A stretch of 46,214 bases of DNA, from IMG/VR virus record IMGVR_UViG_3300017744_005433, positions 1-46,214 of that record; one strand, written 5' to 3'. Within the stretch, counting starts at the first letter, position 1, and every line of letters starts with the position of its first letter. The translations under genes and the position numbers were made by a program. The notes under the pieces were generated by a model. That model saw nothing but the letters and a program-made list of their open reading frames with translations, was not told the origin of the DNA and did no database searches. Below, piece by piece: positions 1,169 to 39,569 of the stretch. Source of the stretch: a virus.

Positions 1169-2670
1169 TTGAATTTCATTTTATTTTCATCTATAGGGTT
1201 TCTTACCCCCCAATGTTCAACTCCACTTTCATCGTACATAGATTCTTTACCTAAACCATTACCTATATTGAATGTATTTTTGTCGTATTTAAATATAAAA
1301 GTCTCTTCTGGCGGAGTTTCTGTGAAAGTTTGAATATACTTTGATTGATTTATTTTTTCAATTATTTTATCTAACACTTCTTTACTTGGGCATCTTTCTA
1401 GGTAGTGGCCATAAATCAGTTTAGTTAAGCCATGAAAGTAGGTAATTGGGGCTAGTGTTAGTATATCCTGCCAACCCGACCTTCTTCTTCTTAGCATTAA
1501 ATCTAATGCAGATTTATGCAAGGGGTTATTTGGAGCGCTTATCATAATATCTTGCGAAAAATCAATAATTTTTCCATGATTTGAATGTAGTGGTAGAACG
1601 CATTTTGCGTTTTTTTCTATGATTGAGTTTAATTTTTTATTTGCGTGTCTATCTATATCTGTATATAAGCCACCTTCGTTGACTATTTTTAATAGACGCC
1701 ATGTGTCAACTTTTGATACTATCGGTGCGTCTTTAATTAAATTATAGTCTATAGTTGATAAATTTTCCTTCAAATATAATTCAACTTCATTGTCGTCTGA
1801 AATTACTAGTTCCCATTCTGGGTTTATTTTTATTAGATTCTGTATTCCGTTTACAGCTAATTGATTTGAACTTTCTAATATAGACTTATCTTTCCATGAA
1901 ATATGGATTTTCTTGGGTATTAAAGATAAAGGCTCAAGGAGGTCATCTAGATTTTCTTTCTGCGAACTTATCCTCATCACAGAAGAGTTTTTAAAGAAAT
2001 TAGATTTTTGATCCGAAAAGTTTATGGGGTCCGAAAAAACTTCTTTATTGTATCTTTTATTGTTTAATTCAAAATTAGTTGCAGCTTCTCTTCCTCCGAA
2101 CTTTATGTCTTGCAAAAAGATAGGTTTTTTAAGGGCGTATACATTATAGTTTACTTGCATTTCAGCGGCAAATACATCCCAGATCTTTTTTTGATAAAAG
2201 CCATCAATCATAGCTTTTTGATAGGCTGAAGCGCCAAGCGGAGAGCAAATCATGATTGCGTGACCACTGAGCATGTTGAAAATTTGATATACGTTTTCAT
2301 CAATTTGTTGGGCGGAAATATTATCAATAGCTTCACCATCATTCATGGCTAGTTGAGATAGGCCTAGATAAAATAAATCTGCATCATTAGGAATATCAAT
2401 TTCCTTTGGCATTTCTCGATAAAAAGATACGTCGTCCTCTAATATCACGAACGGCTGAAAAGGTCTTGAGTTATCTTGCTCTCTTAAACCTGCTTCAATC
2501 ATTCTTGCATGACCTATGCTTCCAGATTTTTCTTTTGATATACCTATTTCATAAGGTAGTATTTTTTTGAATTTATAGTCTTTTAATATAGATTCTATAT
2601 GTTTAGAGTTTTCACTATCTTCTGTTTTTGTTAGATAATAAAATTTAAGATTATTAGTTTTGAGTATCAT
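1165..2670 (-). CDS. Two-domain glycosyltransferase: GT25-like plus GT32/DXD-like
   Basis: A 501-residue protein that appears to be a fusion of two sugar-transferase domains. Residues about 1-200 resemble the LPS beta-1,4-galactosyltransferase family GT25: SIGHARMI near 51-58 and VILEDD at 75-80, which is the family's acidic motif. Residues about 250-500 resemble the DXD sugar-binding family (GT32, Och1-like): IPKKIHISWK at 251-260, then SKVDTWRLL followed by GGLYTDID with the DxD at 338-340. It could therefore add two sugars in sequence. It overlaps the upstream DUF2827 gene by 17 bases and the downstream GT34-like gene by four, indicating one operon. No signal peptide is seen. The identity of each domain is motif-based; substrates are unknown. 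Confidence 0.78.
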   Translation of the reverse strand: MILKTNNLKFYYLTKTEDSENSKHIESILKDYKFKKILPYEIGISKEKSGSIGHARMIEAGLREQDNSRPFQPFVILEDDVSFYREMPKEIDIPNDADLFYLGLSQLAMNDGEAIDNISAQQIDENVYQIFNMLSGHAIMICSPLGASAYQKAMIDGFYQKKIWDVFAAEMQVNYNVYALKKPIFLQDIKFGGREAATNFELNNKRYNKEVFSDPINFSDQKSNFFKNSSVMRISSQKENLDDLLEPLSLIPKKIHISWKDKSILESSNQLAVNGIQNLIKINPEWELVISDDNEVELYLKENLSTIDYNLIKDAPIVSKVDTWRLLKIVNEGGLYTDIDRHANKKLNSIIEKNAKCVLPLHSNHGKIIDFSQDIMISAPNNPLHKSALDLMLRRRRSGWQDILTLAPITYFHGLTKLIYGHYLERCPSKEVLDKIIEKINQSKYIQTFTETPPEETFIFKYDKNTFNIGNGLGKESMYDESGVEHWGVRNPIDENKMKFK

Positions 2671-3751
2671 CTATTATTTTCTTATATACATTAATGTTAT
2701 CCTGATTGTATGGGCTGTACTTTTTTAGGAAATTTTTATTGTCATCCTTGGTTCGGTCTAGTGTTTCGCTGTGATTTAGTATAGCGTTCTTTAATTGGTT
2801 TGCCCCGAAGTCCACATCACAGTCCGGATAATAATAACCTACATCTTCCAGGGTTGAAGAGTTGTGTATTAAGGGTAGGTTTAGAAACAGAGCCTCAAGG
2901 TAGCTGTAGTTTAATTCGTTTTTGATTTGATGGCTAACTATAGTACTCCCAAATTTACTTAATGCGTCAATGGAACTCCACCTTTTATTGAAGTAGCAGA
3001 AGTCTTTCTTTTTCACAACTTCCAGTCTATTCATAAGCTTTTCAAAGAACGGGTTAAACTTAATTCTTTGACAGCAGAATATGTTTATAGATTTTAATAT
3101 TTTTTGATCTTTGTTGTGAAGATTTTCCAATATATTGATCGGTATTATACAATTTTTAATAAAAGATATGTTTGGTTCAAAAATGCATATTTTATTGATT
3201 TTTTCTTTTTTAAAACTTGGGTCTAGTCCTTTTTTTTGAAGCTCTTTGATTTTGTCTTCCACGAAAAAAGAGTCCCATATAAATGGAATAACTATAACGT
3301 CTTTAAAGTTATAATAAGTTTTTATATAGCTTTTAGAAAACTCATGTTGCGGGGATATCCAGATTTGATCTAGGTACTTAGGTTTTTCTAGTGGTAGCTT
3401 AGGGCTTTTATTTAATAGGGAATGATTGATGTCATCCATTAATTTATTGCCGAAATGTATCAGTATCGTTTTGAAATTATTATTCCTGGCTTTTAATTTA
3501 TCGTACATTTCTGGAAGTAAATCGAATCCGGCAACTATTACTAAGTCTAAATTTTCATTATCGTCGGCAAGTAAATCTTCTAAGAGCATACCTCTGTGGT
3601 CCTTCTTTAGTGTGTGAGTCGGTTTTTTATGGGTGATATAAAAGCATTCGTGCCCGCATCTGTTTATCATTTCATAAAGAAATACGATGTTTTGTTGCAT
3701 TCCGTTAGCCCAAAAGGCAATGGACATATCTAGAGTTATTCCTATTTTCAT
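2654..3751 (-). CDS. DUF2827-family putative glycosyltransferase (copy 1)
   Basis: A 365-residue protein of the DUF2827 type, GT-B-like proteins found in bacterial glycan loci. Recognisable parts are the N-terminal WANGMQQNIVFL segment (about residues 14-25), DQIWISPQHEFS in the middle, IFEPNISFIKNC, and the C-terminal LNYSYLEALFLNLPLIHNS followed by GYYYPDCD, which is the most characteristic block. It shares this whole layout with the next gene upstream (3748-4827), so the two are paralogues. It overlaps that gene by four bases (ATGA) and the downstream gene by 17. There is no signal peptide. Function in the family is inferred as sugar transfer; the acceptor is unknown, though the neighbouring Ser/Thr/Asn-rich structural protein is a plausible target. 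Confidence 0.72.
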   Translation of the reverse strand: MKIGITLDMSIAFWANGMQQNIVFLYEMINRCGHECFYITHKKPTHTLKKDHRGMLLEDLLADDNENLDLVIVAGFDLLPEMYDKLKARNNNFKTILIHFGNKLMDDINHSLLNKSPKLPLEKPKYLDQIWISPQHEFSKSYIKTYYNFKDVIVIPFIWDSFFVEDKIKELQKKGLDPSFKKEKINKICIFEPNISFIKNCIIPINILENLHNKDQKILKSINIFCCQRIKFNPFFEKLMNRLEVVKKKDFCYFNKRWSSIDALSKFGSTIVSHQIKNELNYSYLEALFLNLPLIHNSSTLEDVGYYYPDCDVDFGANQLKNAILNHSETLDRTKDDNKNFLKKYSPYNQDNINVYKKIIDDTQN

Positions 3752-4827
3752 GACAATAATTTTTTATATTTTTCTATAACAATTGAGTTTTCCGGTGAGT
3801 ATTTATGAATTGTTTTTTGCGCTTGCTCTTTGTATTTATCTAGATTTTGATCGTGATAATTTAAGGCGAGGTTTAGAGCCTCTGCCCCTAACTTGGTGTC
3901 GTAATTAGGGTAGTAGTATCCAGATTCTTTAATCAGCTCAGAGTTGTGAACAAGGGGGAAATTAAAATGTAATGCTTCGAAATACGTATAATTTAAGGCG
4001 TTCAATAGTTGGTTTGAAATTATGACATTAGACATATCTGTAAATATTTTAGAAACTTTTATTCTTCCTTTGAATTCTATTTTATATTCTTTTGTTACGT
4101 CTAGATTCCACATTAGGGATTTGAAATATTTTTTATCAGTAAATTTTGCCGCGCAATAAACTGTTATTTTATTAAAATCATCTTTACTGAACTTTGTGTA
4201 AAATTCCTCAGCTATCATTATTGATGGAAGGCAGTGTTTTGTTATGTTTAAATTAGGTTCGAGTATTCCAATGTTTTTATCTTCACTTGGTTGGTAGTAG
4301 CAGGTCTTATTTATCTTGTTCCATATTTTTTCATGCATATCTATATATTTCGGGCTCCAGATATAAGGTAATTCAAATACTTTTTCCGTATTATAATATG
4401 TTTTATAGTAGTTGTATGAAAATTTGTAATGAGGGGATATCCATACTTGATCGACCATTTCTGGGCTTATAGCTAAATGATCTTGCCAATTACATCTTTC
4501 TATGTCTGCTAAAAGACCGTTTCCATAAACAATATGTATGTTTTTGAAATTTTTATTTTTTTCTTTTATTAATTTTAATGCATTAAGATTAATAAGCCAA
4601 GAGGCGTTTAGCACAAAAGATATATCTTCACAATATTCTAATAATTCATTTTCTTCTATAATTAAAATATCAGATGGTGGATCGATGCATTCTTCTATTT
4701 TATGATTTATGGCGATAATTGGAGTGAAGCCAATACCTTTTAATAATTCAGCCAGAAATACTATGTTTTGCTGTAGTCCGTTGCTGAATAACCCGTTTTT
4801 ATAATTAGCCGTAAGCAATATATTCAT
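3748..4827 (-). CDS. DUF2827-family putative glycosyltransferase (copy 2)
   Basis: A 359-residue paralogue of the gene at 2654-3751. The same landmarks occur in order: FSNGLQQNIVFL near residues 14-25, DQVWISPHYKFS, ILEPNLNITKHC, LNYTYFEALHFNFPLVHNS and GYYYPNYD. Identity between the copies is moderate outside these blocks, which suggests an old duplication with separate specificities. It is the first of the four-gene sugar-transfer run. The 30-base gap before it contains GTGTAATAA six bases from the ATG (see the promoter entry) and no Shine-Dalgarno sequence. The upstream neighbour is an 861-residue structural protein. Confidence 0.72.
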   Translation of the reverse strand: MNILLTANYKNGLFSNGLQQNIVFLAELLKGIGFTPIIAINHKIEECIDPPSDILIIEENELLEYCEDISFVLNASWLINLNALKLIKEKNKNFKNIHIVYGNGLLADIERCNWQDHLAISPEMVDQVWISPHYKFSYNYYKTYYNTEKVFELPYIWSPKYIDMHEKIWNKINKTCYYQPSEDKNIGILEPNLNITKHCLPSIMIAEEFYTKFSKDDFNKITVYCAAKFTDKKYFKSLMWNLDVTKEYKIEFKGRIKVSKIFTDMSNVIISNQLLNALNYTYFEALHFNFPLVHNSELIKESGYYYPNYDTKLGAEALNLALNYHDQNLDKYKEQAQKTIHKYSPENSIVIEKYKKLLS

Positions 4828-4833
4828 TGCATT

Positions 4834-4842
4834 TTATTACAC
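4834..4842 (-). promoter_or_regulatory. GTGTAATA motif 6 nt before ATG of DUF2827 copy 2
   Basis: The minus strand reads GTGTAATAA and then six bases to the ATG at 4827. It matches eight of nine bases of the element found before the genes starting at 7443 and 9834. Candidate -10 element of a late or phage-sigma promoter; unproven. Confidence 0.35.
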
Positions 4843-4857
4843 CGCAAATCTTATTTT

Positions 4858-7443
4858 TTATTCAGAAATTACGAAACTTGCGGGATTTAATGTGGATGTA
4901 TTGGCGGATCTATTCAATTTATCTAAATTAAAAACATAATTTCCGTCCGAGTCAGTTATACCGCTTGAATTGCAAATTGCGAATTTATTATTTAAATCGT
5001 AGGTATTGTTTAATTGTACACCGTCTGAGTAGGACTGGTATGTATAAACGGTTCCTCCATTTGGTGCGGATCCGCCTTCGGATATATTTTCAAATGTCAG
5101 GTTATTTGGGTTTGAAACTGTCGTTCCAATATCTGCTAATCCGGCGCCAAGGCTATTTGGCGAAGCTGAGATTGTCCTAGAGGAAAAGCCTGCTAATTTA
5201 TAGGTCGGATTTGATGATATTGATGTCGTTGTTATATTGGCAAGGTTTGTTGCAGAAACTTGCCAATTGAAGGTGCCTTTTGTATCTAAATCAGATACTG
5301 TTATAGTATAAGAGTTACTATTTTTGCCTGTGCCTGATGAATTTTGGTTTAGACTCGAAGGGTTTGTTTGGTTAGAATCTGTAGATAACGTTGGGTTTGA
5401 TAGCATTAATTGAGAGCTTGACATGTAAAACTGGTCAGATACTCCATTGGGCGAGCTAGATAAAGATGATGCTAAATTATTTATAGATAAGGTAAGCGGT
5501 GAGTTTGCAATATTTACTATTTTGAAAGATTCTGTTGTGGCTCCGTTAGATGATTTTGTTGCGCTAATTTTAAAATTATTAACTCCGCCGTCTCCCTCTA
5601 CGTTATAACCTCCAGCCAAATAATCTGCATTTTTGTTTTGTTCGTATGTAGATGTATTTGATACAGCTAGTTGGCTATTTGGGGAAGAATAAATTATTGA
5701 GTCAAAGTTTGTCACATTATTACTTATAGAGGTTGACTCGCTTGATTTTATAGCTTGTTGTGAAGCTGGGTACGAAATTGAGTTTATGGATATAACGGGA
5801 ATTGTTCCATTGTTAATTTCTGCAGTATCAGTAGTAATTGCGGGATCACTGACTGTGTTAAAGTTATTCTTAGCTTTAAAGGTTACAGCTTGCTCTCCGT
5901 CTCTAGACGAATTACCTAATGCTCCATAAACATTAATTGGTACAATAAATTCAAAACTTCCATCGGGCAGAGTGCTTTTTGAATACGAAGATGAATATGA
6001 GGTTTGAGATCCATTTGATAAGCCTTGACTTAGCACTGATATTGATACATCACTTATCGAGACTCCATTTGCGTCAATAAACACTTTTGAATTAACTACG
6101 TCTCCAGCCTTAACTTCCGATACCCCTATTTGACTTGGAGAAGCTGCAGAAGAGGCTTGTCTACTTAACTCTGTGCCAGTTATAACTGGACCATTGGCGA
6201 TTTTAACTTTTACGAAATCTTCATCTGTTGCGCCGTTCCCTGTTCTGTATGCATAAATTTTTATATTATCTGAATTGTTATATATACCGCCCGAATAAGA
6301 AACAGTTTTATTTTGCTCAAAAGTATTTAAATTAGAAATAGAAATATCGTTAGAAAGAGTTTCGTATTCAATAAAATCTATCGAGCTGTTCCAGTTGCCT
6401 ACATCATTATAAAAAGACGTGTTTTCACTTTCTCTTAAGCCATCTAATCTTCCGTTATAAGAAGTTGGGTCAGATGTAGAAATATTAGGGTAAACCTGAT
6501 CCAAGTCTCTTGTCCCGCTGTTATTAGAAAAAGAATCGGATCTAATCGCGTCCCCTGTTGACCCAAAGCTATTAATGGCTTGAACTGCAACTCCGTGAGT
6601 TCCGGCTCTGCTTGAAACGATTGTTGGTATAGTTGCCCTGTAGAAATCGCCATGATTTACGAGGTTGTAATTAGAAAAATTGGAACCTTGGGATAAGCCA
6701 GAATTTAAAATTTTTATCGAAGATACATCACTTGTATTAAAATCAGCGTAAATGTTAATTTCGTCCCCCTGTTTTAAGTGCGTAGATCCGAGAAGTTCTC
6801 CGGCTTTGGGGGTTGCATTAAGAATTGAATCAATAGAGAGGTTGATTGCCTCTGGGCCTGCGCCTAATTCGTTCAATGATATGAGGGTTTTTCTATCATT
6901 CGCCTCTCCAGTTATGAAAGTCAAACCTTCTGCGTTAAAGTTGTCTAAGTAACCCTTAAATCTTCTCGTGTGATCTCCCAATTCTTCAATGTTGGACAGG
7001 GGTATTTGCTGGCCATTTATATAGGCGTTGCCCATATATTCATCGTTTGGCCCGTCCCACCTCAATTCTACTTTTAAATTTTTAGCCGAAGCTACCGTAA
7101 TCCCTGATAGTTGTAAATTTGGGTTGACGCCTTCGTAGAACGTTTTATCTGTAACTCCGTCGTTATCAGAGACGTCCGAAATAAAAAGAAATTCCGCCGA
7201 ACCAGAGATTGTCTGTTGTAGTGAGGTTCCGAGTTTTGATACATCAACTCCATCAAGCGTTAAGCCACTTAAGAAATTACCGCTATTGAACTCAACATTA
7301 TCTGAGGTTCTTACGTTTTGGTCCATCGAAACTGATAGTCCGCCAAAATATAAATTATCGAAGACTCCTGTAGCCCAAGCTTTGTCTAGCCTGCCTACTC
7401 CCCCTTCTCCACTGTTCCTTGGTACTAAATTTCTTGTAGCCAT
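4858..7443 (-). CDS. Large Ser/Thr/Asn-rich virion protein with duplicated Ig-like region
   Basis: An 861-residue protein whose start MATRNLVPR followed by a Gly-rich stretch and a 'GxFDNLYFGGLSV' segment is typical of marine phage structural or fibre proteins. The centre holds a duplication of roughly 225 residues. Paired landmarks are LKQGDEIN and VKAGDVVN, SGLSQGSNFS and QGLSNGSQTS, NTFEQNKTVSY and STYEQNKNADY, ANGPV and ANSPL; these fit beta-sandwich (Ig-like) domains. The C-terminal third is extremely rich in Ser, Asn and Thr. There is no signal peptide. It sits immediately upstream of four sugar-transfer genes in the same orientation, which makes it a candidate substrate for virion glycosylation. 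Virion location is inferred; no family name can be given with confidence. Confidence 0.65.
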   Translation of the reverse strand: MATRNLVPRNSGEGGVGRLDKAWATGVFDNLYFGGLSVSMDQNVRTSDNVEFNSGNFLSGLTLDGVDVSKLGTSLQQTISGSAEFLFISDVSDNDGVTDKTFYEGVNPNLQLSGITVASAKNLKVELRWDGPNDEYMGNAYINGQQIPLSNIEELGDHTRRFKGYLDNFNAEGLTFITGEANDRKTLISLNELGAGPEAINLSIDSILNATPKAGELLGSTHLKQGDEINIYADFNTSDVSSIKILNSGLSQGSNFSNYNLVNHGDFYRATIPTIVSSRAGTHGVAVQAINSFGSTGDAIRSDSFSNNSGTRDLDQVYPNISTSDPTSYNGRLDGLRESENTSFYNDVGNWNSSIDFIEYETLSNDISISNLNTFEQNKTVSYSGGIYNNSDNIKIYAYRTGNGATDEDFVKVKIANGPVITGTELSRQASSAASPSQIGVSEVKAGDVVNSKVFIDANGVSISDVSISVLSQGLSNGSQTSYSSSYSKSTLPDGSFEFIVPINVYGALGNSSRDGEQAVTFKAKNNFNTVSDPAITTDTAEINNGTIPVISINSISYPASQQAIKSSESTSISNNVTNFDSIIYSSPNSQLAVSNTSTYEQNKNADYLAGGYNVEGDGGVNNFKISATKSSNGATTESFKIVNIANSPLTLSINNLASSLSSSPNGVSDQFYMSSSQLMLSNPTLSTDSNQTNPSSLNQNSSGTGKNSNSYTITVSDLDTKGTFNWQVSATNLANITTTSISSNPTYKLAGFSSRTISASPNSLGAGLADIGTTVSNPNNLTFENISEGGSAPNGGTVYTYQSYSDGVQLNNTYDLNNKFAICNSSGITDSDGNYVFNLDKLNRSANTSTLNPASFVISE

Positions 7444-7448
7444 TACTT

Positions 7449-7457
7449 ATATTACAC
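7449..7457 (-). promoter_or_regulatory. GTGTAATAT motif 5 nt before ATG of the 861-residue protein
   Basis: The minus strand reads GTGTAATAT, five bases before the ATG at 7443, within the 22-base gap between genes. It is identical to the element at 9843-9851. No Shine-Dalgarno sequence is present. Candidate late promoter -10 element or translation-related element. Confidence 0.4.
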
Positions 7458-7465
7458 AAATATTG

Positions 7466-8329
7466 TTAAAAAGATATATCTTTAGTGAATGCATCTGGCC
7501 CAGTATTATACCTCCAAACATTGGCTCTAAGTTCTAGATCCCCATCCTCTCTTAGCATCCACATTGGGTCAGATATGAAAGGGTGGTTGGTTGGAACTAT
7601 ATCTCCAAATTCATCTTCCTCAAAAGCTTCTTCTAGCATGAACCTATTCTTCGAATAATCTCCAGATATAACTTGCTGACCACTAAGCATTGCCTGTAGA
7701 TATAGTCCCGTGGCATTAAGATCTTCCCTTAGTAGGGATCCTGTTTGAGTAAGATCTTTGTATGTTTGATCTATGCGTTCATCAAGATAAGCTCCTGTTT
7801 CACTTAAGTTTCCGCTTAATTCATCTATATGTTTGTGAAGGTGATCTCCAGTTAGAATCAAGTTTTCGCTTAATTCATCTATATGTTTGTGAAGGTGATC
7901 TCCAGTTAGAATCAAGTTTCCGCTTGTAATTAGGAGTCCTTTTAGTATATCTATATTTTCAATAAATATTTTCTCACTAAACCCCGTTTCCATTTGAACT
8001 ATATTTCCCGATAAGCTATCAAAGGACCCCGTGTTTAAATATAGATTACTTATGAAACTCTCTTCTAGGTTGGATTTTAATGAAGTTAATTCTGCTCCAG
8101 ATAGATTATTAAAGATTCCTGTTTTTAATATTAGGTTATCTATGTTAGATAACTCTACGTATTCATCTTTTATTTCAGACTTGTCTGAAATAATATTTTC
8201 AAATATACCAATATCAGTTTTTAGGGATTTACCTTCAACTAGCACTAGGGGGTTTGATGATTGTTTCCCTATGATATATTTATCTTTACCAACCTTTCGG
8301 ATGGACTGACTTATTTCGAAAAAATCCAT
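7466..8329 (-). CDS. Coiled-repeat virion protein
   Basis: A 287-residue protein with no recognised family. The middle is built from 18-residue helical units: SGNLILTGDHLHKHIDEL, SENLILTGDHLHKHIDEL, then the diverged SGNLSETGAYLDERIDQT and YKDLTQTGSLLREDLNAT. Before these lie looser units containing TG.F..LSG. The C-terminus contains PTNHPFISDPMWMLREDGDLELRANVWRYN (split here only for description: an aromatic segment after PTNHPFISD), which looks like a small folded tip or attachment domain. Such repeats form trimeric coiled or beta-helical fibre shafts in marine phages. It starts one base into the stop of the 501-residue protein upstream (TAATG overlap), so the two are coupled and probably partners in one appendage. 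Confidence 0.6.
   Translation of the reverse strand: MDFFEISQSIRKVGKDKYIIGKQSSNPLVLVEGKSLKTDIGIFENIISDKSEIKDEYVELSNIDNLILKTGIFNNLSGAELTSLKSNLEESFISNLYLNTGSFDSLSGNIVQMETGFSEKIFIENIDILKGLLITSGNLILTGDHLHKHIDELSENLILTGDHLHKHIDELSGNLSETGAYLDERIDQTYKDLTQTGSLLREDLNATGLYLQAMLSGQQVISGDYSKNRFMLEEAFEEDEFGDIVPTNHPFISDPMWMLREDGDLELRANVWRYNTGPDAFTKDISF
7813..7920 (-). repeat. Tandem 54-bp repeat (2 copies) in virion gene
   Basis: Two near-identical 54-base units lie at 7813-7866 and 7867-7920 and encode the same 18-residue helical unit, differing mainly at one Gly/Glu codon. A further diverged unit precedes and follows them. High DNA identity suggests a recent duplication or a site of copy-number change. 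Confidence 0.8.
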
Positions 8330-9834
8330 TATTTAGCTACTATGTGATCGCCGTCTACATGCCAAAGGCTATATTTTGTATTATCCAAGGGGGTTTTAGG
8401 CATAATGTATTCTCCTTCTAGCTCCCAGACGCTGAACTCTGAGTTTGGATCTTCCGGCAATTCTCCAGAAGGTAAGGCTGAGAGCTTGTCTGATTCAAGC
8501 TTCCAAGAGTTAAAGTTATTAGAAGGTATGACGTCATACCTTCCGGTTTCCTTGTAAGTTATAGAATAGGTGACAGAAAATCCAGATATTGTATGAGGCC
8601 TCTTGACGAAAATCCTACCAGCTTCGTCATTACTTATTTTTACAGCCATATCAGTATCCAAAAATATTAAATCTTTTGTTTCTGGTGAAACAGGTTCTCT
8701 GTCATCCAACCTTCTTTCCGCTGTGTGGAACTGAATCGGGTAAACAGAATGGTTAAAAATAGTAACATTATCTACGTGTCCCCTTTTGTATATTTCGTTA
8801 AAATCTTCTAATTCATAGGAATTTATAAGGCTGGCTGAGACATTTTCCTGTCTCATTGAAAATAAAGTATCTGTATGAAAAGATTCGCTTTTATCTACTC
8901 CTCTATTAGGATCTGTAGACTCTGAATGTATAAAATGGTTTGGATGTTTTTCTTCGGGGGTGTTGGCGCTCATTCTTCCATTATTGAAGTAAGTTCCATA
9001 TATATCATCAAACAGACTTCTGTCAGATCCATAGGTAACACCTGTAGAATAACCATATCTATCTTCATCAGATATATCTTCCATCAATATGAAATCCTCT
9101 TCTATTTTTTGCTTAACAGTTTTAGTTCTTAATTTCCAGGGTTGATAGAGTCTTCTAGTCCCTTCGCAAATAGACAGGCTGCCGCCGACATTATCTAACT
9201 TAGCTATTACAGCGCTTAATAGCGCATGAGTTTCGGAATCTGAGTCTAGATCTACGCCCTTTTTTATATCGAGTAACTGCGAAGATATTCCTGAAAGTAA
9301 TTTATGAGTTTCTGTATCGTGATCTAGATCTACTCCAATATGGATGTCGGAAAGCTCCCCTGAAATTCCAGAGAGTAGTCTATGGGTTTCTGTATCGTGA
9401 TCTAGATCTACTCCAATATGTATATTGGAAAGCTCTCCTGATAGTCCAGAGAGTAGTCTGTGAGTCTCTAGATCATTATTATTTCCTAAAGCTCCAGATA
9501 TACCCGATAATAATTTATGAGTTTCTTCATCATTATTATAACCTAATGATCCAGATATACCCGAAAGTAGCCTGTGAGTTTCTTGATCATGCTCGAGATC
9601 AACGCCTATGTGTATATCGTTTAGTACGCCTGTAAAACTTTGAATGGCTCCTGATATGCCTATAAGAATATCATTGGTGGACTCCATATCCAACTGCAAT
9701 GTGTTGGTTGCGGGCTCCCACCTTCCTGATTCAATGCTCCACCTATAGCCAAAGCTCGGCGAAGGGGATAGGTGATCAAGTTTCGTTATATCGGTGTATA
9801 ACGGATTGTTTTTGTAATCTTCTGAATTTGGCAT
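8329..9834 (-). CDS. Repeat-containing virion/fibre protein
   Basis: A 501-residue protein. Residues about 20-60 include FGYRWSIESGRWEP, resembling the start of some marine phage baseplate or fibre proteins. Residues about 70-220 carry repeats of 19 or 26 residues with core ETH[RK]LLSG[IL]SG and spacer IHIGVDLDHD. The remaining 280 residues have no visible repeats and end with three related short segments (SWKLESDKL, SVWELEGEYIMPK, SLWHVDGDHIVAK). No signal peptide is seen. The gene overlaps the next by one base. The short gap before it contains GTGTAATAT and no Shine-Dalgarno sequence. Structural role is inferred from repeat type and from lying next to other repeat proteins. Confidence 0.6.
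   Translation of the reverse strand: MPNSEDYKNNPLYTDITKLDHLSPSPSFGYRWSIESGRWEPATNTLQLDMESTNDILIGISGAIQSFTGVLNDIHIGVDLEHDQETHRLLSGISGSLGYNNDEETHKLLSGISGALGNNNDLETHRLLSGLSGELSNIHIGVDLDHDTETHRLLSGISGELSDIHIGVDLDHDTETHKLLSGISSQLLDIKKGVDLDSDSETHALLSAVIAKLDNVGGSLSICEGTRRLYQPWKLRTKTVKQKIEEDFILMEDISDEDRYGYSTGVTYGSDRSLFDDIYGTYFNNGRMSANTPEEKHPNHFIHSESTDPNRGVDKSESFHTDTLFSMRQENVSASLINSYELEDFNEIYKRGHVDNVTIFNHSVYPIQFHTAERRLDDREPVSPETKDLIFLDTDMAVKISNDEAGRIFVKRPHTISGFSVTYSITYKETGRYDVIPSNNFNSWKLESDKLSALPSGELPEDPNSEFSVWELEGEYIMPKTPLDNTKYSLWHVDGDHIVAK
9308..9420 (-). repeat. 78-bp direct repeat in virion gene
   Basis: A 35-base stretch at 9308-9342 recurs exactly at 9386-9420, a period of 78 bases or 26 residues (ETH..LLSG.. 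plus IHIGVDLDHD). Diverged copies continue on both sides between about 9190 and 9620. Confidence 0.8.
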
Positions 9835-9842
9835 ATCAGAAG

Positions 9843-9851
9843 ATATTACAC
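9843..9851 (-). promoter_or_regulatory. GTGTAATAT motif 8 nt before ATG of the 501-residue virion protein
   Basis: The minus strand reads GTGTAATAT within the 24-base gap between the FmdB-like gene and the 501-residue virion gene. It is the same nonamer as at 7449-7457. Its position at the border between the early-type operon and the virion genes fits a late promoter, but there is no direct proof. Confidence 0.4.
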
Positions 9852-11258: not shown

Positions 11259-11653
11259 CAAAATGGTACATCTGCAAACTCATCTTCTTCATCTTTCAAC
11301 AAAGGATTGTCTAATTGATTAGATTTTAGTTCTCTATGTAATTGGTTGTCATTTGATTTATCTAGGAATGTTACTTGGTCCGCAATGCAGAATAATTTAC
11401 TTCTTGCTTCGCCGCTCTTAGAGTTCCAAGTGTTTAGCTGTAACCTTCCTTCTACTACTACTTTCCTCCCTTTACTAAGGAATCTGGAACAATTCTCTGC
11501 AGTCTTGCTCCACGTTTCTATATCTACAAACGTTACAGAATCGTTTGCCTTATTATTTATTGCTAAGCTGAAGTTACAGACAGCTTTTCCAGATTTCGTA
11601 TTTTTGAAGTCTGGATCTCTAGTTAAATTACCAAGTCCTATGAATTTATTCAA
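11258..11653 (-). CDS. ssb: Single-stranded DNA-binding protein
   Basis: A 131-residue SSB with one OB-fold. The start MNKFIGLGNLTRDPDF, the segment NFSLAINN, VDIETWSKTAENC and KGRKVVVEGRLQ follow the bacterial and phage SSB order exactly. The C-terminus is acidic and ends DEFADVPF, the usual tip that binds partner proteins of replication and recombination. It would coat single-stranded DNA during phage replication. The start is TTG, preceded by AAAAGGAG nine bases upstream, which supports the choice. It overlaps the sigma-like gene upstream by eight bases and the glycosyltransferase downstream by three. Confidence 0.92.
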   Translation of the reverse strand: MNKFIGLGNLTRDPDFKNTKSGKAVCNFSLAINNKANDSVTFVDIETWSKTAENCSRFLSKGRKVVVEGRLQLNTWNSKSGEARSKLFCIADQVTFLDKSNDNQLHRELKSNQLDNPLLKDEEDEFADVPF

Positions 11654-12248
11654 AATTTAATTCTCCTTTTAATTCTTCTCTTACGTGCACAACCGCTGAG
11701 TTGTGGATATTTATACATCCCTGTATACTTAATTTCATTTCATCCCCTATATCTTTCCATGCCATAACTTTATTTTTAGTTCCTATAATGTATCTCATAT
11801 TAAAAATTTTTTCTACTCTTTTGTCTGGGTGTTTTTTGATTATTAATAAAACTTTATCAAACATATCTCTCTTGAGGGATTCTTTCATACTCTCTTCGTT
11901 TAAGCCTGGATTGTCTGATATATTTTCTATATACTCGGAGTTAAATACAGGCTTCCTCTTGTTTTTGTTATAAGTATTCAGACAGGACCATTTGGTCTCA
12001 TTACCAAGGTATGTGCTGAACTTGGCTCCTCTATTTTCGTCGAAATTTAGGGCCGCCAGGTATATTTTATACTCCTTGTCTTTTATCAATTCATCTCTAT
12101 CTATATAAGGATTATCGTTCGATGAATAGGCGTTTACCATATCTAAATAGATACCGCTATGCCTATTAACTAAATTAGCTAAATTAGACTCGACATTATT
12201 GTCTTTCTTTATTTCGTTTATTATTTGAAGATCAGATAAATCACTCAT
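11646..12248 (-). CDS. Phage sigma-factor-like protein (sigma70 region 2 and C-terminal HTH)
   Basis: A 200-residue protein. Residues about 22-95 resemble sigma70 region 2: LVNRHSGIYLDMV, then DELIKDKEYKIYLA, then FDENRGAKFSTYL at 69-81, which matches the FD..RG.KFSTYA signature of the core-binding and -10-recognition helix. Residues about 162-192 (AWKDIGDEMKLSIQGCINIHNSAV) fit a helix-turn-helix like region 4. The protein is short, as expected for the group of phage or ECF-like sigma factors. It probably directs host RNA polymerase to phage promoters, possibly the virion genes. It sits third in the leftward operon, between dNMP kinase (four-base ATGA-type overlap) and ssb. Activity as a true sigma factor is inferred. 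Confidence 0.72.
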   Translation of the reverse strand: MSDLSDLQIINEIKKDNNVESNLANLVNRHSGIYLDMVNAYSSNDNPYIDRDELIKDKEYKIYLAALNFDENRGAKFSTYLGNETKWSCLNTYNKNKRKPVFNSEYIENISDNPGLNEESMKESLKRDMFDKVLLIIKKHPDKRVEKIFNMRYIIGTKNKVMAWKDIGDEMKLSIQGCINIHNSAVVHVREELKGELNFE

Positions 12249-12797: not shown

Positions 12798-13094
12798 TTA
12801 TGCTCCAAATATATTTTTCAAATTGGTTGATAAGTCATGCATTCCCGCATTTGCAAGCATTTGCGAAACTGAATGATACGAAACTAGTTCGTCGTAATCC
12901 TCATCCATAACATCATGTTTCATTTCGTTGGATATCATTACCGATGATAATTTTAAATCCTTGCCCCGTCTATCTAGCATACAAACTAACGCTTGCGTGC
13001 ATGCTTCTGTCTCATTATTTGCGGATATTACAACCGACCAGTCAGAGCATTTTATTAGAAAATATTTATCTTCACTTAAATCTATAAATTTCAT
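12798..13094 (-). CDS. Hypothetical protein, first gene of the leftward early operon
   Basis: A 98-residue protein that I do not recognise. It begins MKFIDLSEDKYFLIKCSDWSVVISA, with alternating hydrophobic residues suggesting a small beta-sheet, then NETEACTQALVCMLDRRGKDL, probably a helix, then an acidic segment MDEDYDELVSYHSV. No signal peptide or membrane segment is present. It is the promoter-proximal gene of the operon that carries dNMP kinase, the sigma-like factor and ssb. The ATG lies six bases downstream of a near-consensus -10 box with no room for a ribosome site, suggesting a leaderless mRNA. Confidence 0.6.
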   Translation of the reverse strand: MKFIDLSEDKYFLIKCSDWSVVISANNETEACTQALVCMLDRRGKDLKLSSVMISNEMKHDVMDEDYDELVSYHSVSQMLANAGMHDLSTNLKNIFGA

Positions 13095-13100
13095 AAGAAC

Positions 13101-13129
13101 AGTATATCATCTTAACTCAATAATGTCAA
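13101..13129 (-). promoter_or_regulatory. Near-consensus sigma70 promoter, leftward
   Basis: On the minus strand TTGACA (13124-13129), a 17-base spacer, then TATACT (13101-13106). The ATG at 13094 begins six bases after the -10 box, so the expected start of transcription falls on or next to the start codon. This is the strongest promoter seen in the window and drives the dNMP kinase/sigma/ssb operon. Confidence 0.8.
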
Positions 13130-13231: not shown

Positions 13232-13260
13232 TTGACGAAAAATGATTTTACTGATATTAT
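13232..13260 (+). promoter_or_regulatory. Near-consensus sigma70 promoter, rightward
   Basis: TTGACG (13232-13237), a 17-base spacer, then TATTAT (13255-13260). The ATG of the winged-helix gene at 13268 is seven bases after the -10 box, again predicting a leaderless transcript. It would drive the regulator and the glycan gene island that follows without clear breaks. Confidence 0.75.
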
Positions 13261-13267: not shown

Positions 13268-13576
13268 ATGAGAAAATTCATACAAACACCAATCGCTGTA
13301 CAACAAGATGTAATTGATGGAAAACTAATAGGTAACGATTTAGTTGTGTACAATTATTTATTATCTAAGGCTGGACACGGAGAGCCTATATTCTTCTCTA
13401 ACAATAGGATTGCTGAAGATTTAGGGGGGATGTCTTACGGAAAAATATCCGCAAGCATGAATAGGTTAGCTAAGCTCAGTCACATAAAAAGAAAAAAAAC
13501 ATCAAACAAGATGTTAACTCAATTGAAAACTTTAGTCATTAACGGGGATGTTAAGGTGAGAGGTAGGAAGGTTTGA
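13268..13576 (+). CDS. Winged-helix/HTH DNA-binding protein
   Basis: A 102-residue basic protein with a helix-turn-helix at about residues 44-66: SNNRIAEDLGGMSYGKISASMNRL, the usual 'IA..LG.S...VS..I..L' arrangement of winged-helix regulators and replication initiator N-domains. The C-terminal part is lysine/arginine-rich (HIKRKKTSNK, VKVRGRKV), fitting the wing and DNA contact. It probably regulates the divergent promoters next to it. I choose the ATG at 13268 rather than the in-frame TTG at 13232, because that TTG is part of the -35 box of the promoter and the ATG sits at the predicted transcription start. It ends overlapping the next gene by four bases (TTGA). Confidence 0.68.
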   Translation: MRKFIQTPIAVQQDVIDGKLIGNDLVVYNYLLSKAGHGEPIFFSNNRIAEDLGGMSYGKISASMNRLAKLSHIKRKKTSNKMLTQLKTLVINGDVKVRGRKV

Positions 13577-14523
13577 AGATATCAGTAAGAATGGAAGGTG
13601 GGTTGGGAGATCATCTCGCCGCCAATAGACTCATACCCGCAATAAAGAAATTCCACGGGAATTGCATTATTGATTTATTCTCGGACACAGAAGGTAATAG
13701 ATTGCAATCTGATATACTTAATAAAATGTGGCCCAGCCACTTTAACGAAACTAACGTCATAGAGTCGAAGAGGTTCAAGAAAATAACAATCAAGTCATCA
13801 AATTTTCCAGACGAATTATATCCAGGGCACATAGATAATATACCAACAGAGGTAAGAAAAAAAATGATTGAGGAGTATGATCTGTTTTACGATCTTCATA
13901 TAGACTCCCTTGAATGGCTGAATCATCCATACGACTGGTTAAAACATTTTAACTTTTTTCCTGAACCTGAATTAAAACTGTCTACCAATATTAATTTACC
14001 GGATAATTTCATAATGACGCACCTATACGCTAGAGATGGAGCGGACTCAAACATGGAAGAGTGGTACATATCTAAACTCCTAAAAAACATCTCTCAAGAA
14101 TTTGACGTTGTTGTATTAATTAACGAAGACTCTGAATCAATATACAAAAAAATAAAAAACGAAAGACTTGAGAGAATCCACTTCGTAAAAGCCTCACTAG
14201 AAGACATATTCTACATATCAAGCAAGTGTATAGCTGCCTTTGGAATAGATTCGGGTATAAGATTTATTCCATACCATTATGGAAAACCTACATTTACATT
14301 TTCAAAATATTGCAAACAGTACGGAACTGTACAGTATTCTTATTTAATAAGGTGGCTATTTAATGAAAAATTTGTCTTTCCACTTCATTACGACGTAAAA
14401 AGCGCAAGTAAGATAATAAAAAATTCACTTAAAAACCCAGCTTACAAACTATACCCTTTCTTATTAGATGACATAGAGAGGCTTGTCGCCCAAAGGGATG
14501 TAACGGAAGTAATAAAGCAATGA
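13573..14523 (+). CDS. GT9-like glycosyltransferase (ADP-heptose transferase type)
   Basis: A 316-residue GT-B-type protein. The N-terminus has EGGLGDHLAANRLIPAIK (GGLGD at residues 9-13), the loop that starts GT9-like transferases, and the C-terminal half has the family's AFGIDSGIRFIPYHYGKPTF segment, comparable to 'ND[ST]G..H.A.A.G.P...'. It would transfer a sugar from a nucleotide donor in the cytoplasm. The start is TTG, overlapping the previous stop by four bases and preceded by AGGAAGG a few bases upstream; an ATG at 13591 is the alternative. It ends in an ATGA overlap with the next gene, beginning the glycan operon. Confidence 0.68.
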   Translation: MKISVRMEGGLGDHLAANRLIPAIKKFHGNCIIDLFSDTEGNRLQSDILNKMWPSHFNETNVIESKRFKKITIKSSNFPDELYPGHIDNIPTEVRKKMIEEYDLFYDLHIDSLEWLNHPYDWLKHFNFFPEPELKLSTNINLPDNFIMTHLYARDGADSNMEEWYISKLLKNISQEFDVVVLINEDSESIYKKIKNERLERIHFVKASLEDIFYISSKCIAAFGIDSGIRFIPYHYGKPTFTFSKYCKQYGTVQYSYLIRWLFNEKFVFPLHYDVKSASKIIKNSLKNPAYKLYPFLLDDIERLVAQRDVTEVIKQ

Positions 14524-15308
14524 AAGCAGCCTTACTTTTTAGCGGTAAACTTGGAGACTGGAAAGAGTGTTTTGAATCTATTTCTAAAAACATCATTAAG
14601 CCTTTCAACCCAGACATTTTCTTAACAACTTGGGAGGGTGAGGATGTGGACGATTTTAGTAGAACGTTCAGTCCGTCCGCCCTAAGGCTTCTAAACTTTG
14701 AGGATTGCATAAAGCTATTAAAGGTAGATAAACTCACCCGCAAACCAAGTGAAGGTTTAATACCTATGTTAGCAGGAATAAAAGGCGTCCACTCTTTATA
14801 CAGGGAGTACGAACAAGAAAAATCCACGAGTTACGATTTAGTGATAAGGTTGCGCCCTGATATTCAAATTTTAGAGTCCGTAAATCAACAAGAAATTGAA
14901 GACTGTATTAAATCAAAATGCATCAGGACTCCACTTTTCGAGAGTGATAATATATATAACCACGAAGAGGAAATGAAAAAAGAATTTTCTTTTAGTTTTG
15001 TTTACGATAAAGCTTCACTACCTAATCAAATTAATGATCAATTTGCTATAGGCCATCCAAATGAAATGGATAAATATATGAACTGCATATCGAAGGTGAA
15101 TGAAGCTATTGATAAATTATGGAACGAAGGTTATCCGGAATACATGATAAAAGTTCCAGAGTCGGTAATGACCATATGCCTACAACTACAAGGCTGTAAA
15201 TACAAACAGCTAACTGGAACTAACTCATTCAATAACATAAAAACAATCCTCTGCAAAAATGGAAAAAAGTGGAGAAATAGGGGTCATCAATCTACAATAG
15301 CTGAATGA
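14520..15308 (+). CDS. Putative glycan-biosynthesis protein (glycosyltransferase-like)
   Basis: A 262-residue protein. The start KAALLFSGKLGDWKECFESI followed by PDIFLTTWEGE, and the mid-segment YDLVIRLRPDI, form a pattern I have seen in proteins of surface polysaccharide loci, where an N-terminal strand-turn-helix is followed by 'D.F.HTW' and 'R.RPD'. I cannot assign a named family. A FAIGHPNEMDKYMNCI segment follows near residue 180. There is no signal peptide. ATGA overlaps at both ends couple it to a GT9-like and a GT4-like gene, which supports a role in glycan assembly. Transfer of a sugar is inferred from context and fold hints only. Confidence 0.5.
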   Translation: MKAALLFSGKLGDWKECFESISKNIIKPFNPDIFLTTWEGEDVDDFSRTFSPSALRLLNFEDCIKLLKVDKLTRKPSEGLIPMLAGIKGVHSLYREYEQEKSTSYDLVIRLRPDIQILESVNQQEIEDCIKSKCIRTPLFESDNIYNHEEEMKKEFSFSFVYDKASLPNQINDQFAIGHPNEMDKYMNCISKVNEAIDKLWNEGYPEYMIKVPESVMTICLQLQGCKYKQLTGTNSFNNIKTILCKNGKKWRNRGHQSTIAE

Positions 15309-16261
15309 AAATATTCTTCCCAGACATACATATAACTCTAACTAAGAACTTAAGCCTAAGCTTAGAGAAGCTTGGGCATCAATTGATATTACCCTCTAAA
15401 GATTACATCATATCAGAACTCCCACCACAGGGTTGGGCATGGAATAAATCACACACTAGCGAATCAACGGAAAAATACGGATTTGCAAAAAACACAATTT
15501 ATGCAAGCAAAGATGAAATTTTCGACATAAAACCAGAGGTTATCTTCGTGAGTGCATTCGAAAACCAATTTGAAGTTATAAACATATTATGGCCGGAGGC
15601 GAAAAAGTGGGGTGCTAAATTAGCGTTCTATAGCGGTAATGACTATTGGGATACAGCCTACCCTTGGGACATTATAGAGAACTACATGCCTGCAGATCAG
15701 CTAGCGGCAAAGCTTTGTGAAAAGAACAAGAAACATTATTTCCACTACAGACCTTGGATCGACTACGAGATGTTCTCTTACGAAGGTCCTAGCGATTCAG
15801 ATATCATAGGTACTTACATATGTGATTATAAAAATAATTTCCCAGAAGATTTTGAGTGTTACAACAAAATAAAAAAATCAACTACAGCAAACTATCTCCT
15901 ATGCGAAGATAAGACAAAAGCAGAAACGTCCGATATAATGAATAAAAGTTGCGCAACCTTACATATCAAAAGATTAGAGGGTTATGGCTTCGCAGTTATA
16001 GAAAGTATGGCAAAAGGTAGACCTGTCTTCTTCTGGGAACCTTTAACAGAAGGAAAAAGTTACCTGCAATGGCTTAAGCTAGGAGTAACTGCTTTTACCT
16101 TCAGAGACCTAGGGGATTACATCTCTCAATTAAACTTTTTACTATCAAACAAAGATTTCAGAAATGAAGTTCAATTTAATTGCTCTAGAGAAATAAGGAA
16201 AATAATAAACAACGAAGAACAAAACCTTAAATTAAATAATTTTTTAAATAATTTATTATAA
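15305..16261 (+). CDS. Glycosyltransferase, GT-B fold, GT4-like C-terminal domain
   Basis: A 318-residue protein. The C-terminal signature LEGYGFAVIESMAKGRPVFFWEP is the GT4 donor-binding motif (E.FG...EAMA.G.PV) in slightly altered form. The N-terminus MKIFFPDIHITLTKNLSLSLEKLGH is the standard Rossmann start. A PEAKKWGAKLAFYSGNDYWDTAYPWD region separates the domains. No membrane segment is seen. It overlaps its neighbours by four and one bases. It belongs to the glycan operon; donor and acceptor are unknown. Confidence 0.72.
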   Translation: MKIFFPDIHITLTKNLSLSLEKLGHQLILPSKDYIISELPPQGWAWNKSHTSESTEKYGFAKNTIYASKDEIFDIKPEVIFVSAFENQFEVINILWPEAKKWGAKLAFYSGNDYWDTAYPWDIIENYMPADQLAAKLCEKNKKHYFHYRPWIDYEMFSYEGPSDSDIIGTYICDYKNNFPEDFECYNKIKKSTTANYLLCEDKTKAETSDIMNKSCATLHIKRLEGYGFAVIESMAKGRPVFFWEPLTEGKSYLQWLKLGVTAFTFRDLGDYISQLNFLLSNKDFRNEVQFNCSREIRKIINNEEQNLKLNNFLNNLL

Positions 16262-16956
16262 TGAAATTACTAATAGTATTACCTACCAGAAATAGATTCA
16301 GCAAATGTATAGAAGTTCTAAAGTCGTATATAAATTTATCAACACATAAAGAAACTAGATTTGTGATTAGTTGTGACAACGACGACACATCGATGAATCA
16401 AAAAACAGCCATTAACTTAATCCATTCCTTCCCGAATGTAAGCATTGTATTTAATGATAATAAAATAGTAAAAAACGAACTAATTAGTAATTTCACAACA
16501 AAGGTATGTGCAATAAATTCGGGAGCTAAAAATCAAGAATTTGATGTCTGTTTGCTTGCTAGCGATGACATGCACCCAGAGGTTGTTGGTTATGACTCCG
16601 TGATAATCGAAGATATGAAAAGATTTTACCCAGACACGGACGGAGTTCTTTGGTATAATGATGGCTACCAAGGTCAAAAACTAAACACATTATGTATACT
16701 AGGGAAGAAATACTATGACAGGTTTGGCTATATATATCACCCCTCATACATAACCCTTTATTGCGATAATGAATTCACTAAAGTTTCACAAAAATTAAAT
16801 AAATGTCAATATATAGATAAGACAATAATAAGGCATAAGCACTGGTCGCACAAAGACAATAACAACTCAAGAGACTCTCTTGATGAAAAAAACGACACAT
16901 TTGCATCTAGCGATGAGGCTAATTTTAGAGCTCGATTACAAAATGATTTTAAGTAA
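16261..16956 (+). CDS. Glycosyltransferase family 2-like protein
   Basis: A 231-residue GT-A protein. The N-terminal LIVLPTRNR at residues 3-11 is the GT2 first strand and loop, and CLLASDDMHPEV around residue 100 supplies the DxD-like metal site (SDDM). IINSGAK-type segment AINSGAKNQEFD precedes it as in other GT2 proteins. The protein is shorter than most GT2 enzymes and lacks a visible membrane segment. It starts one base into the stop of the previous gene (TAATG) and overlaps the sulfotransferase start by 14 bases. Confidence 0.7.
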   Translation: MKLLIVLPTRNRFSKCIEVLKSYINLSTHKETRFVISCDNDDTSMNQKTAINLIHSFPNVSIVFNDNKIVKNELISNFTTKVCAINSGAKNQEFDVCLLASDDMHPEVVGYDSVIIEDMKRFYPDTDGVLWYNDGYQGQKLNTLCILGKKYYDRFGYIYHPSYITLYCDNEFTKVSQKLNKCQYIDKTIIRHKHWSHKDNNNSRDSLDEKNDTFASSDEANFRARLQNDFK

Positions 16957-17485
16957 ACAAAAAATAATATTCATTCATGCTCCTAGAACCAGCGGAACAT
17001 CTATAGAGAATGAAATACTAGGAAATCAATTAGTTCCAGATAACCAGAAACATTTGAGAGCGAGTCAAATCAAACTCCACCTAAGAAATGAGTGGAGCGA
17101 TTACTTTAAGTTTACTATAGTCAGAAATCCATGGGATAGAGTTATATCTTTTTACCATCAAATATTTCATGAAGCTTATGGAATAAGAACCGGAAAAAGC
17201 TTATTGTTTTTTCTCCAACATTACAAACCTGCCCCATGGGAACATGGGTTGCAATGCTCTGATTACGCCGATGAAGATATGGACTTAGTTATAAAGTTTG
17301 AAGACAGAGAGAAGGGCTTAAAATCGCTGGAGGATATTACAGGCATTAAGGTTGATCCTAATAAAAAATCAAGATCAAGAAATAGGGGTAAAAAAAATTA
17401 TAGAGACTACTACGACGAGACAACAAAAGATATAGTGGAGAGATCTTTTTCAAGAGATATAGATTTATATGGATACCAATTCTAG
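16943..17485 (+). CDS. Carbohydrate sulfotransferase-like protein
   Basis: A 180-residue protein of the Sulfotransfer_2-like type. The 5'-phosphosulfate (PAPS) loop is seen at residues about 9-21 as IFIHAPRTSGTSI, and the 3'-phosphate site at 57-70 as FTIVRNPWDRVISF; both are the two defining motifs. It would move sulfate from PAPS to a sugar hydroxyl. It is somewhat shorter than cellular enzymes (often 200-300 residues). The start at 16943 is preferred because MILSKQKIIFIH is the family's normal N-terminus, while the longer reading from 16880 only re-reads the previous gene in another frame. It overlaps both neighbours (14 and 17 bases). The PAPS would have to come from the host. Confidence 0.82.
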   Translation: MILSKQKIIFIHAPRTSGTSIENEILGNQLVPDNQKHLRASQIKLHLRNEWSDYFKFTIVRNPWDRVISFYHQIFHEAYGIRTGKSLLFFLQHYKPAPWEHGLQCSDYADEDMDLVIKFEDREKGLKSLEDITGIKVDPNKKSRSRNRGKKNYRDYYDETTKDIVERSFSRDIDLYGYQF

Positions 17486-18359
17486 AATAAAAGTATCGGT
17501 CATTAATGGAAACGAAGATACCTTGCGCGATCCAATATTGGGAAGACCATTTTCCCATAACCTAGACCGCATAGATTATACAGAAAAACATAACGAAGCG
17601 GATGCCATACTACTATATCTAGATTATCTAGAGTGTGACAGGGATTTCAGCAGGCTATCAAGTACAGATGTATATAAAAAGTACGGGGATAAGTGTTTTT
17701 GTTTAGCTATGCATGATAATCCAAGCTTTGCTTACAGGGATAGCATTTGCACTAAATTTATATGTCAACCATTAATGGGGTCTGCAGAAAATTCCTCTCG
17801 AAAGATAATACCAATACCCTTAACCATGAGGCACTTTGAATACGAAATGATCAAAGACTTGCTTTTCATAAAAGAATGCAGGTCATCCAGAAAAATAAAC
17901 AACTTTTGCTTTACAGGTCAAACGGGGTATGCGAATAGAGATAAAATATTCAACTACAATCTTCCAAAATTCGACAGGGAAAAAACAAAACCTATCTGGC
18001 ATATAAAAAACAAAGAAGAGAGAATAAAATTAAATAAAAATTTCTGCAAAAGACTATCTTTATCTAAATTCTCTTTCTGCCCTAGGGGCGCAGGAAGTAG
18101 CTCGTTTAGGCTTTACCAATCTATGATGTCAGGGACAGTACCGATTATCTCAGGGATGGAAGATTTCCCATTTCAGGATGAGGTTAGTTGGGACTCTATG
18201 TGTATCAGAAGAGTTGTGGACCCGATGGATCTTCTATCTATTGATGAAAACGACTACAAAGCAATAAGGAGCAACGCGATAAATTTCTGGGACCAATATG
18301 TAAATATAGAAAATTGCGATAAAATATTATTCCAAAAATACATATACAATAGAAAATAG
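17469..18359 (+). CDS. Exostosin-like glycosyltransferase (GT47-like)
   Basis: A 296-residue protein. The block LSKFSFCPRGAGSSSFRLYQSM followed by GTVPIIS and DFPFQDEVSWDSM is the core of the exostosin family C-terminal domain (S.F.LCPRG....S.R..E....G..PVI....  .PF...W). The N-terminal half, with ADAILLYLDYLE and a segment FCFTGQTGYANRDK, is compatible with the first half of the GT-B fold. Family members transfer GlcA, Gal or Xyl; the sugar here is not known. It overlaps the sulfotransferase gene by 17 bases, and a 23-base gap follows. Confidence 0.75.
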   Translation: MDTNSRIKVSVINGNEDTLRDPILGRPFSHNLDRIDYTEKHNEADAILLYLDYLECDRDFSRLSSTDVYKKYGDKCFCLAMHDNPSFAYRDSICTKFICQPLMGSAENSSRKIIPIPLTMRHFEYEMIKDLLFIKECRSSRKINNFCFTGQTGYANRDKIFNYNLPKFDREKTKPIWHIKNKEERIKLNKNFCKRLSLSKFSFCPRGAGSSSFRLYQSMMSGTVPIISGMEDFPFQDEVSWDSMCIRRVVDPMDLLSIDENDYKAIRSNAINFWDQYVNIENCDKILFQKYIYNRK

Positions 18360-18382
18360 TATAAAATAAAATACTATCAATA

Positions 18383-19048: not shown

Positions 19049-19051
19049 CTA

Positions 19052-21286: not shown

Positions 21287-21291
21287 AAACC

Positions 21292-22959: not shown

Positions 22960-22965
22960 TCTACT

Positions 22966-39546: not shown

Positions 39547-39569
39547 TTTTCCCTTAAACCTCGTATATT

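Follow-up and report, generated by a model that had tools for sequence, protein, structure and literature searches.

The late promoters of phage T4 consist of a -10-like element alone, without conservation of a -35 element, and T4 gp55 has been described with a sigma2 homology domain (PMC7892883). These promoters (TATAAATA) are served by host RNA polymerase together with gp55, gp33 and the gp45 clamp. Leaderless genes of Deinococcus-Thermus and Actinobacteria have an ORF-adjacent -10 box of the form TANNNT (PMC3160421, PMC12340547) that is placed ca. 12 bp upstream of the start codon; they lack a Shine-Dalgarno sequence and have a very short leader or none at all. Phage AR9 has leaders of 26 to 491 nt and a late motif AACA-N6-TA/G (PMC5312081). 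With AR9 and the phiKZ-type phages, whose promoters are recognised by multisubunit RNA polymerases of the phage, the lineage described here shares a large size, putative early and late gene classes and short late elements. In the gp28/gp34 scheme of phage SPO1, an early phage sigma factor switches the host RNA polymerase over to later genes, whose promoters carry both -35 and -10 elements and give leadered mRNA. Leaderless mRNA is known from individual phage genes, and some bacteria use it throughout their genomes. What is already known includes -10-only late promoters (T4) and bacterial -10 boxes beside open reading frames with leaderless mRNA. Among open-licence papers, we found none on GTGTAATA together with a phage, none on leaderless phage promoters and transcription start sites, and no description of the GTGTA element, of the sigma family presented below or of a phage lineage whose two promoter classes both run directly into the start codons.

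We analysed a 46,214-base IMG/VR virus record, probably a fragment, that is referred to as the window in its whole length and in which no tRNA was found. A first-pass annotation of this DNA had pointed to a nonamer 8, 5 and 6 bases before three minus-strand start codons, in short gaps devoid of Shine-Dalgarno sequences, and had proposed either the -10 element of a late promoter read by a phage sigma-like protein or a ribosome-related signal. In the model that we consider quite likely as a whole, GTGTAWWW would serve as the -10 element of phage late promoters that have no -35 element, and transcription would start ca. 6 to 9 nt downstream of it. For most late genes, the start point would be the A of the start codon or 1 to 2 bases earlier, giving a leaderless mRNA translated from its 5'-terminal AUG, and a second late set (tail-tip protein J and tape measure) would have the element 16 to 35 nt upstream and a short leader in which a Shine-Dalgarno sequence of the AAGG type precedes the start. 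Early genes would use host-type sigma70 promoters (TTGACA-N17-TATAAT) with a -10 box ending 6 to 7 nt before the ATG, and one early operon would supply the phage sigma-like protein that steers host RNA polymerase to the GTGTA promoters.

Such late promoters would resemble those of T4 in their solitary -10-like element, in the structural nature of the late genes and in the plausibility of a phage-encoded sigma-family reader, but would have GTGTAWWW in place of TATAAATA. Across a 40-kb T4 segment, TATAAATA lies 14 to 28 nt from starts and a Shine-Dalgarno-like word accompanies 36 of 48 genes, indicating that T4 late genes are leadered whereas most GTGTA genes would not be; unlike gp55, the sigma-like protein found here also retains a sigma4-type part. 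The early promoters fit the bacterial ORF-adjacent -10 box type directly, yet the layout differs from that of TANNNT genes in being phage-wide, in comprising two gene classes and in having a late class with GTGTA and no TANNNT consensus. An early phage sigma would recall the SPO1 scheme, with the difference that the GTGTA promoters have no conserved -35 element and that the mRNAs would be mostly leaderless.

The motif and its position ahead of start codons

The motif copies just ahead of start codons in the window and the genes behind them are as follows:

9844-9851, minus strand: GTGTAATA, predicted -10 element of a leaderless late promoter, 9 nt ahead of the ATG of 8329-9834
8329-9834, minus strand: predicted late gene, 501 aa, protein family not recognised, N-terminus KNNPLYTDITKLDHLS
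7450-7457, minus strand: GTGTAATA, predicted -10 element of a leaderless late promoter, 6 nt ahead of the ATG of 4858-7443
4858-7443, minus strand: predicted late gene, 861 aa, PHROG tail family phrog_15433
4835-4842, minus strand: GTGTAATA, predicted -10 element of a leaderless late promoter, 7 nt ahead of the ATG of 3748-4827
3748-4827, minus strand: gene behind a predicted late promoter, 359 aa, DUF2827

The window has no other copy of GTGTAATA; all three lie on the minus strand, each just ahead of an ATG. Their number is unremarkable (at least three copies in 21 of 100 shuffles, mean 1.56), but their placement is above chance, given that a random site ends 4 to 11 nt ahead of a start with a chance of 0.34%, which for three out of three amounts to a rough figure of 4e-8. 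The distances noted earlier for the nonamer were confirmed and correspond to 9, 6 and 7 nt for the octamer, and the gaps ahead of the genes starting at 9834, 7443 and 4827 are indeed short (24, 22 and 30 nt) and free of Shine-Dalgarno sequences. All three sites are kept in place in a close relative, G001 (protein identity 83 to 93%), and the site at 4835-4842 has the same placement in G001, G004, G012, G013, G020 and G023. The DUF2827 gene behind this site is no obvious structural protein despite its predicted late promoter, and positions 2654-4827 hold two tandem, related-looking genes. The "tail sheath" label of phrog_15433 stems from a C-terminal match that the 861-aa protein has in common with jumbo Pseudomonas phages and is probably misleading, as siphovirus-type tail-tip genes are present here.

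A search with the 501-aa protein led to a relative of 140 kb in which each of the three sites is conserved, and searches with the tail-family protein (4858-7443) and the sigma-like protein gave 9 and 32 loci, respectively. Our comparison set comprised 33 related IMG/VR contigs of 16 to 184 kb; genes were called mechanically with ATG preferred, which resulted in 2098 starts including those of the window and in 1465 after dropping similar upstream regions. A hold-out set of 49 further loci was kept apart from motif discovery. At the 1465 non-redundant starts, no other 8-mer ending 4 to 11 nt upstream is as strongly enriched as GTGTAATA (31 occurrences versus 0.35 expected, 89-fold), with GTGTATAT as runner-up (22 versus 0.20). 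The only anagrams that approach this enrichment are shifted or degenerate forms of GTGTAATA itself, and the reversed word ATAATGTG occurs just once at 4 to 11 nt. The hold-out set again placed GTGTAATA first of all 8-mers at the same distances (9 versus 0.06).

Expectation maximisation yielded the consensus GTGTAWWW, with 1.0 to 1.8 bits per position across GTGTA followed by three A/T positions, at ca. 163 non-redundant starts, where the distances to the start codon peak at 6, 7 and 9 nt; some sites lie at 10 to 13 nt and would leave leaders of a few nucleotides. The motif precedes 20 of 20 orthologs of the 861-aa gene (family cl28), 26 of 27 orthologs of the 501-aa gene (cl22) and, as GTGTA, all 13 J orthologs with a recognised N-terminus. 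No conserved -35 element accompanies it (no column between -42 and -6 exceeds 0.06 bits), and a free k-mer search upstream returned mainly the divergent copy of the motif and no -35-like box. At these distances the motif was absent from the 40-kb T4 segment, and none of ca. 335 sampled bacterial starts had it.

Predicted leaderless and leadered genes, putative early and late classes

One late gene of the window has its motif further away, with a ribosome-binding signal in between:

39570-39577, minus strand: GTGTATAA, predicted leadered late promoter of the J-like tail-tip gene, 23 nt ahead of GTG 39546
39551-39562, minus strand: Shine-Dalgarno-like GAGGTTTAAGGG, between the motif and the J start codon
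34945-39546, minus strand: J-like tail-tip gene, predicted leadered late gene, 1533 aa, GTG start

The related GTGTATAAAATA that had been reported ahead of this gene is present there in the form of GTGTATAA. Across the contigs, genes with the motif at 4 to 11 nt have a Shine-Dalgarno-like word in 7 of 128 cases, the level of other genes (48/591), compared to 30 of 43 when the motif lies at 15 to 35 nt, the word then standing between motif and start (Fisher p 8e-17 against 7/128). Most genes with a distant motif belong to just two families, J and tape measure, and the test was therefore redone per gene family, where the switch is again seen (6/17 for a far versus 3/57 for a near motif, p 0.004), as it is in the hold-out set (3/6 versus 0/35). 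All but one of the 13 J orthologs have an AAGG- or GAGG-type word ahead of the start. In the leaders of J and tape measure, the Shine-Dalgarno signals are doubled (AAGGTTTAAGG, AAGGAATAAGG) and conserved across relatives, as at positions 39551-39562 of the window.

A second class of promoters, of sigma70 type, is found in the same contigs and in the window itself:

13101-13129, minus strand: predicted early sigma70-type promoter TTGACA-N17-TATACT, -10 box ending 6 nt before ATG 13094
12798-13094, minus strand: first gene of the predicted early leftward operon, 98 aa, MKFIDLSEDKYF
11646-12248, minus strand: phage sigma-like protein with sigma2 and sigma4 parts, 200 aa, proposed reader of the motif
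13232-13260, plus strand: predicted early sigma70-type promoter TTGACG-N17-TATTAT, -10 box ending 7 nt before ATG 13268
13268-13576, plus strand: first gene of the predicted early rightward operon, 102 aa, weak DnaD/replication-initiator match

The promoter at 13101-13129 heads the operon that contains the sigma-like gene, and such a promoter was called in 23 of the 28 members of its ortholog family (cl16). On the other strand, the mechanically called TTG start at 13232 is the -35 box of the predicted early promoter, with the true start probably at ATG 13268. A long block of plus-strand genes (13573-27387) separates the early region from the tail genes and looks sugar-related by eye from its translations, with glycosyltransferase-, nucleotidyltransferase-, sulfotransferase- and methyltransferase-like products.

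The strict sigma70 promoters of these contigs combine TTGACA-like and TATAAT-like boxes with a spacer of 16 to 18 nt. The distance from the end of the -10 box to the start codon is 6 nt in 47 cases, 7 nt in 17, and 5 and 8 nt in 9 each. A -10 box sets the transcription start ca. 7 nt downstream, and the early mRNAs would therefore be expected to begin at or next to the ATG. These boxes also serve as an internal ruler, since the GTGTA motif keeps the same distance to start codons as they do, which argues for a -10 role. If its T and A correspond to -12 and -11, the conserved GTG would occupy -15 to -13. The predicted -10 element most often ends 6, 7 or 9 nt before the start at late sites and 6 or 7 nt before it at early ones, with Shine-Dalgarno words not above chance, a geometry that fits leaderless mRNA and that the first-pass annotation had overlooked, together with the existence of a sigma70-type early class built in the same way.

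The two promoter types stand ahead of different genes. Behind sigma70 promoters we found RIIA, RIIB, DnaB helicase, a PHP polymerase-like protein, the small subunit of ribonucleotide reductase, UvdE endonuclease, a deoxyribosyltransferase-like protein and a DnaD-like protein, and behind GTGTA tail-family proteins, J, tape measure, a protease and a Clp-like protease; several further proteins of the latter class have no match to known families. It is from this gene content that the sigma70 class would be early and the GTGTA class late. The late-promoter reading of the original observation is thus strengthened by the structural-type genes downstream, by the missing -35 element and by the separate Shine-Dalgarno sequence wherever the motif is distant.

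The sigma-like protein and the rival readings

The product of 11646-12248 has a weak PHROG sigma match (E about 5e-4), and its family profile retrieves SigA and RpoD among solved structures (E about 5e-4); its C-terminal part can be aligned with SigA region 4, a match that is weak on its own. Its predicted fold (mean pLDDT 81) is that of two-domain sigma factors, and nearly all Foldseek matches are sigma factors (best E 1.5e-4), the top ones including sigma32, AlgU, sigmaB, WhiG and sigmaE. The sigma2 and sigma4 matches are individually modest and mutually consistent, and together they assign the protein to the sigma70 family. Two segments, FSTYLGNETKW (sigma2-like) and QGCINIH (sigma4-like), are invariant across relatives of 40 to 87% identity. 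Set against the segment FSTYATWWIRQ of E. coli sigma70, the Phe-Ser-Thr-Tyr is kept and Trp433, Trp434 and Gln437 are replaced by Asn, Glu and Trp, which would fit an altered -10 specificity. The sigma4-type helix-turn-helix has invariant residues although no -35 element is conserved, which counts against the model.

The sigma-like gene is present exactly once in 13 of 13 tested contigs, a co-occurrence with the motif that is partly by construction because the majority of relatives were recruited via this very protein. Its place in the operon headed at 13094, behind TTGACA-N17-TATACT, means that it should be made early by the host polymerase. Fold, near-invariant putative DNA-contacting segments and family-wide co-occurrence are consistent with its being the likely reader of the GTGTA motif. 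The tie between motif and protein consists of co-occurrence and fold, and the motif might instead be a -10 region read by an alternative sigma of the host, by host RNA polymerase that a phage co-factor has altered, or by a further phage sigma. A second short open frame with a match to sigma region 4 (170 to 195 aa; G005:14217-14345, G007:8673-8777 and G033:63714-63827) could be such a second phage sigma or co-factor. This frame is limited to 3 of 13 contigs, however, the motif is missing from all of the ca. 335 sampled bacterial starts, and the putative DNA-contacting segments of the sigma-like protein are invariant family-wide, as is the motif, so that we regard another reader as unlikely.

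The ribosome-related signal proposed at the outset would make the motif a non-canonical ribosome-binding site in the mRNA, a notion suggested by its spacing of 6 to 9 nt, which resembles that of Shine-Dalgarno sequences, and by motif genes that have none. We reject it as very improbable, given that the motif is nearly absent inside operons (0.7% of genes with gaps of up to 5 nt versus 27.6% for gaps of 15 to 60 nt) and that the J and tape-measure families have it 16 to 35 nt from the start, with a distinct AAGG signal between the two. It also occurs straight after terminators (terminator-like hairpins upstream of 11/129 motif genes versus 2/533 others) and in divergent gene pairs, whose divergent motifs are 23 bp apart, and host-type -10 boxes take its position in other genes. 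The same divergent pairs, seen as inverted repeats (TATTACAC-N15-GTGTAATA) of a compact conserved word, might rather point to the operator of a phage DNA-binding activator that aids ordinary sigma70 holoenzyme. Single copies are the rule, though, and the inverted pairs are explained by the divergent genes; no sigma70 -35 element was found beside the motif, and the motif stands as far from the start as true -10 boxes do, all of which renders an operator improbable. Chance, or an artefact of AT-rich gaps and of biased gene calling, could appeal to the total count of GTGTAATA in the window, which does not exceed that of shuffles, but is refuted by the 49 hold-out loci and has next to no likelihood in view of the 89-fold positional enrichment (the strongest of any 8-mer), the conservation in 20/20 and 26/27 orthologs and the absence of the motif at these distances from the T4 segment and the bacterial samples. 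A late -10 element read by the phage sigma-like protein hence remains our preferred reading.

The phage lineage and its possible host

The marine phages concerned have lambda-type tail-tip genes and genomes of at least 184 kb, and at least 257 contigs encode a relative of the sigma-like protein. No close named phage was found by DNA or by the sigma-like protein, and other proteins gave distant matches only. A phage multisubunit RNA polymerase as in phiKZ was considered and rejected, as the RNA polymerase beta domain PF00562 is absent from 18 contigs (the contigs being fragments; the control matched 14/14), and none was found in the window. A search with PF00940 for a T7-like single-subunit RNA polymerase had no match in 13 contigs, with an equally silent control.

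A scan of bacterial genomes with the terminase gave matches in bins called Halobacteriovorax, Flavobacteriaceae, Verrucomicrobiales and an unnamed bacterium, which are probably mis-binned phage contigs. At 79217-81981 (L069/L070), the 184-kb relative G004 has a succinate dehydrogenase cytochrome b-like gene (SdhC) adjoining a quinone-reductase-like gene, with an APS-kinase/nucleotidyltransferase-like gene behind a predicted late promoter and an inorganic pyrophosphatase-like gene as neighbours. Among the genomes sampled, which covered other phyla less deeply, this SdhC is nearest to that of Verrucomicrobiota (best matches 49 to 54%), so that a single phage-borne gene provides a weak lead to this phylum as host. 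Small samples of Verrucomicrobiota lacked GTGTA, and leaderless -10 boxes were not evident in them.

Judged from sequence comparison, it appears reasonably likely that a large uncultured phage lineage conducts much of its gene expression on leaderless mRNA, with host sigma70 promoters for early genes, a distinct phage sigma and GTGTA without a -35 element for late genes, the start codon as the first transcribed base and Shine-Dalgarno leaders reserved for a few tail genes. If true, the fusion of early and late promoters to start codons would be a new coupling of transcription and translation signals, and a new sigma family together with its DNA target would form a testable pair. It would also suggest a host that translates leaderless mRNA well, and start codons, operons and temporal classes would become readable straight from the sequence in many uncultured phages.
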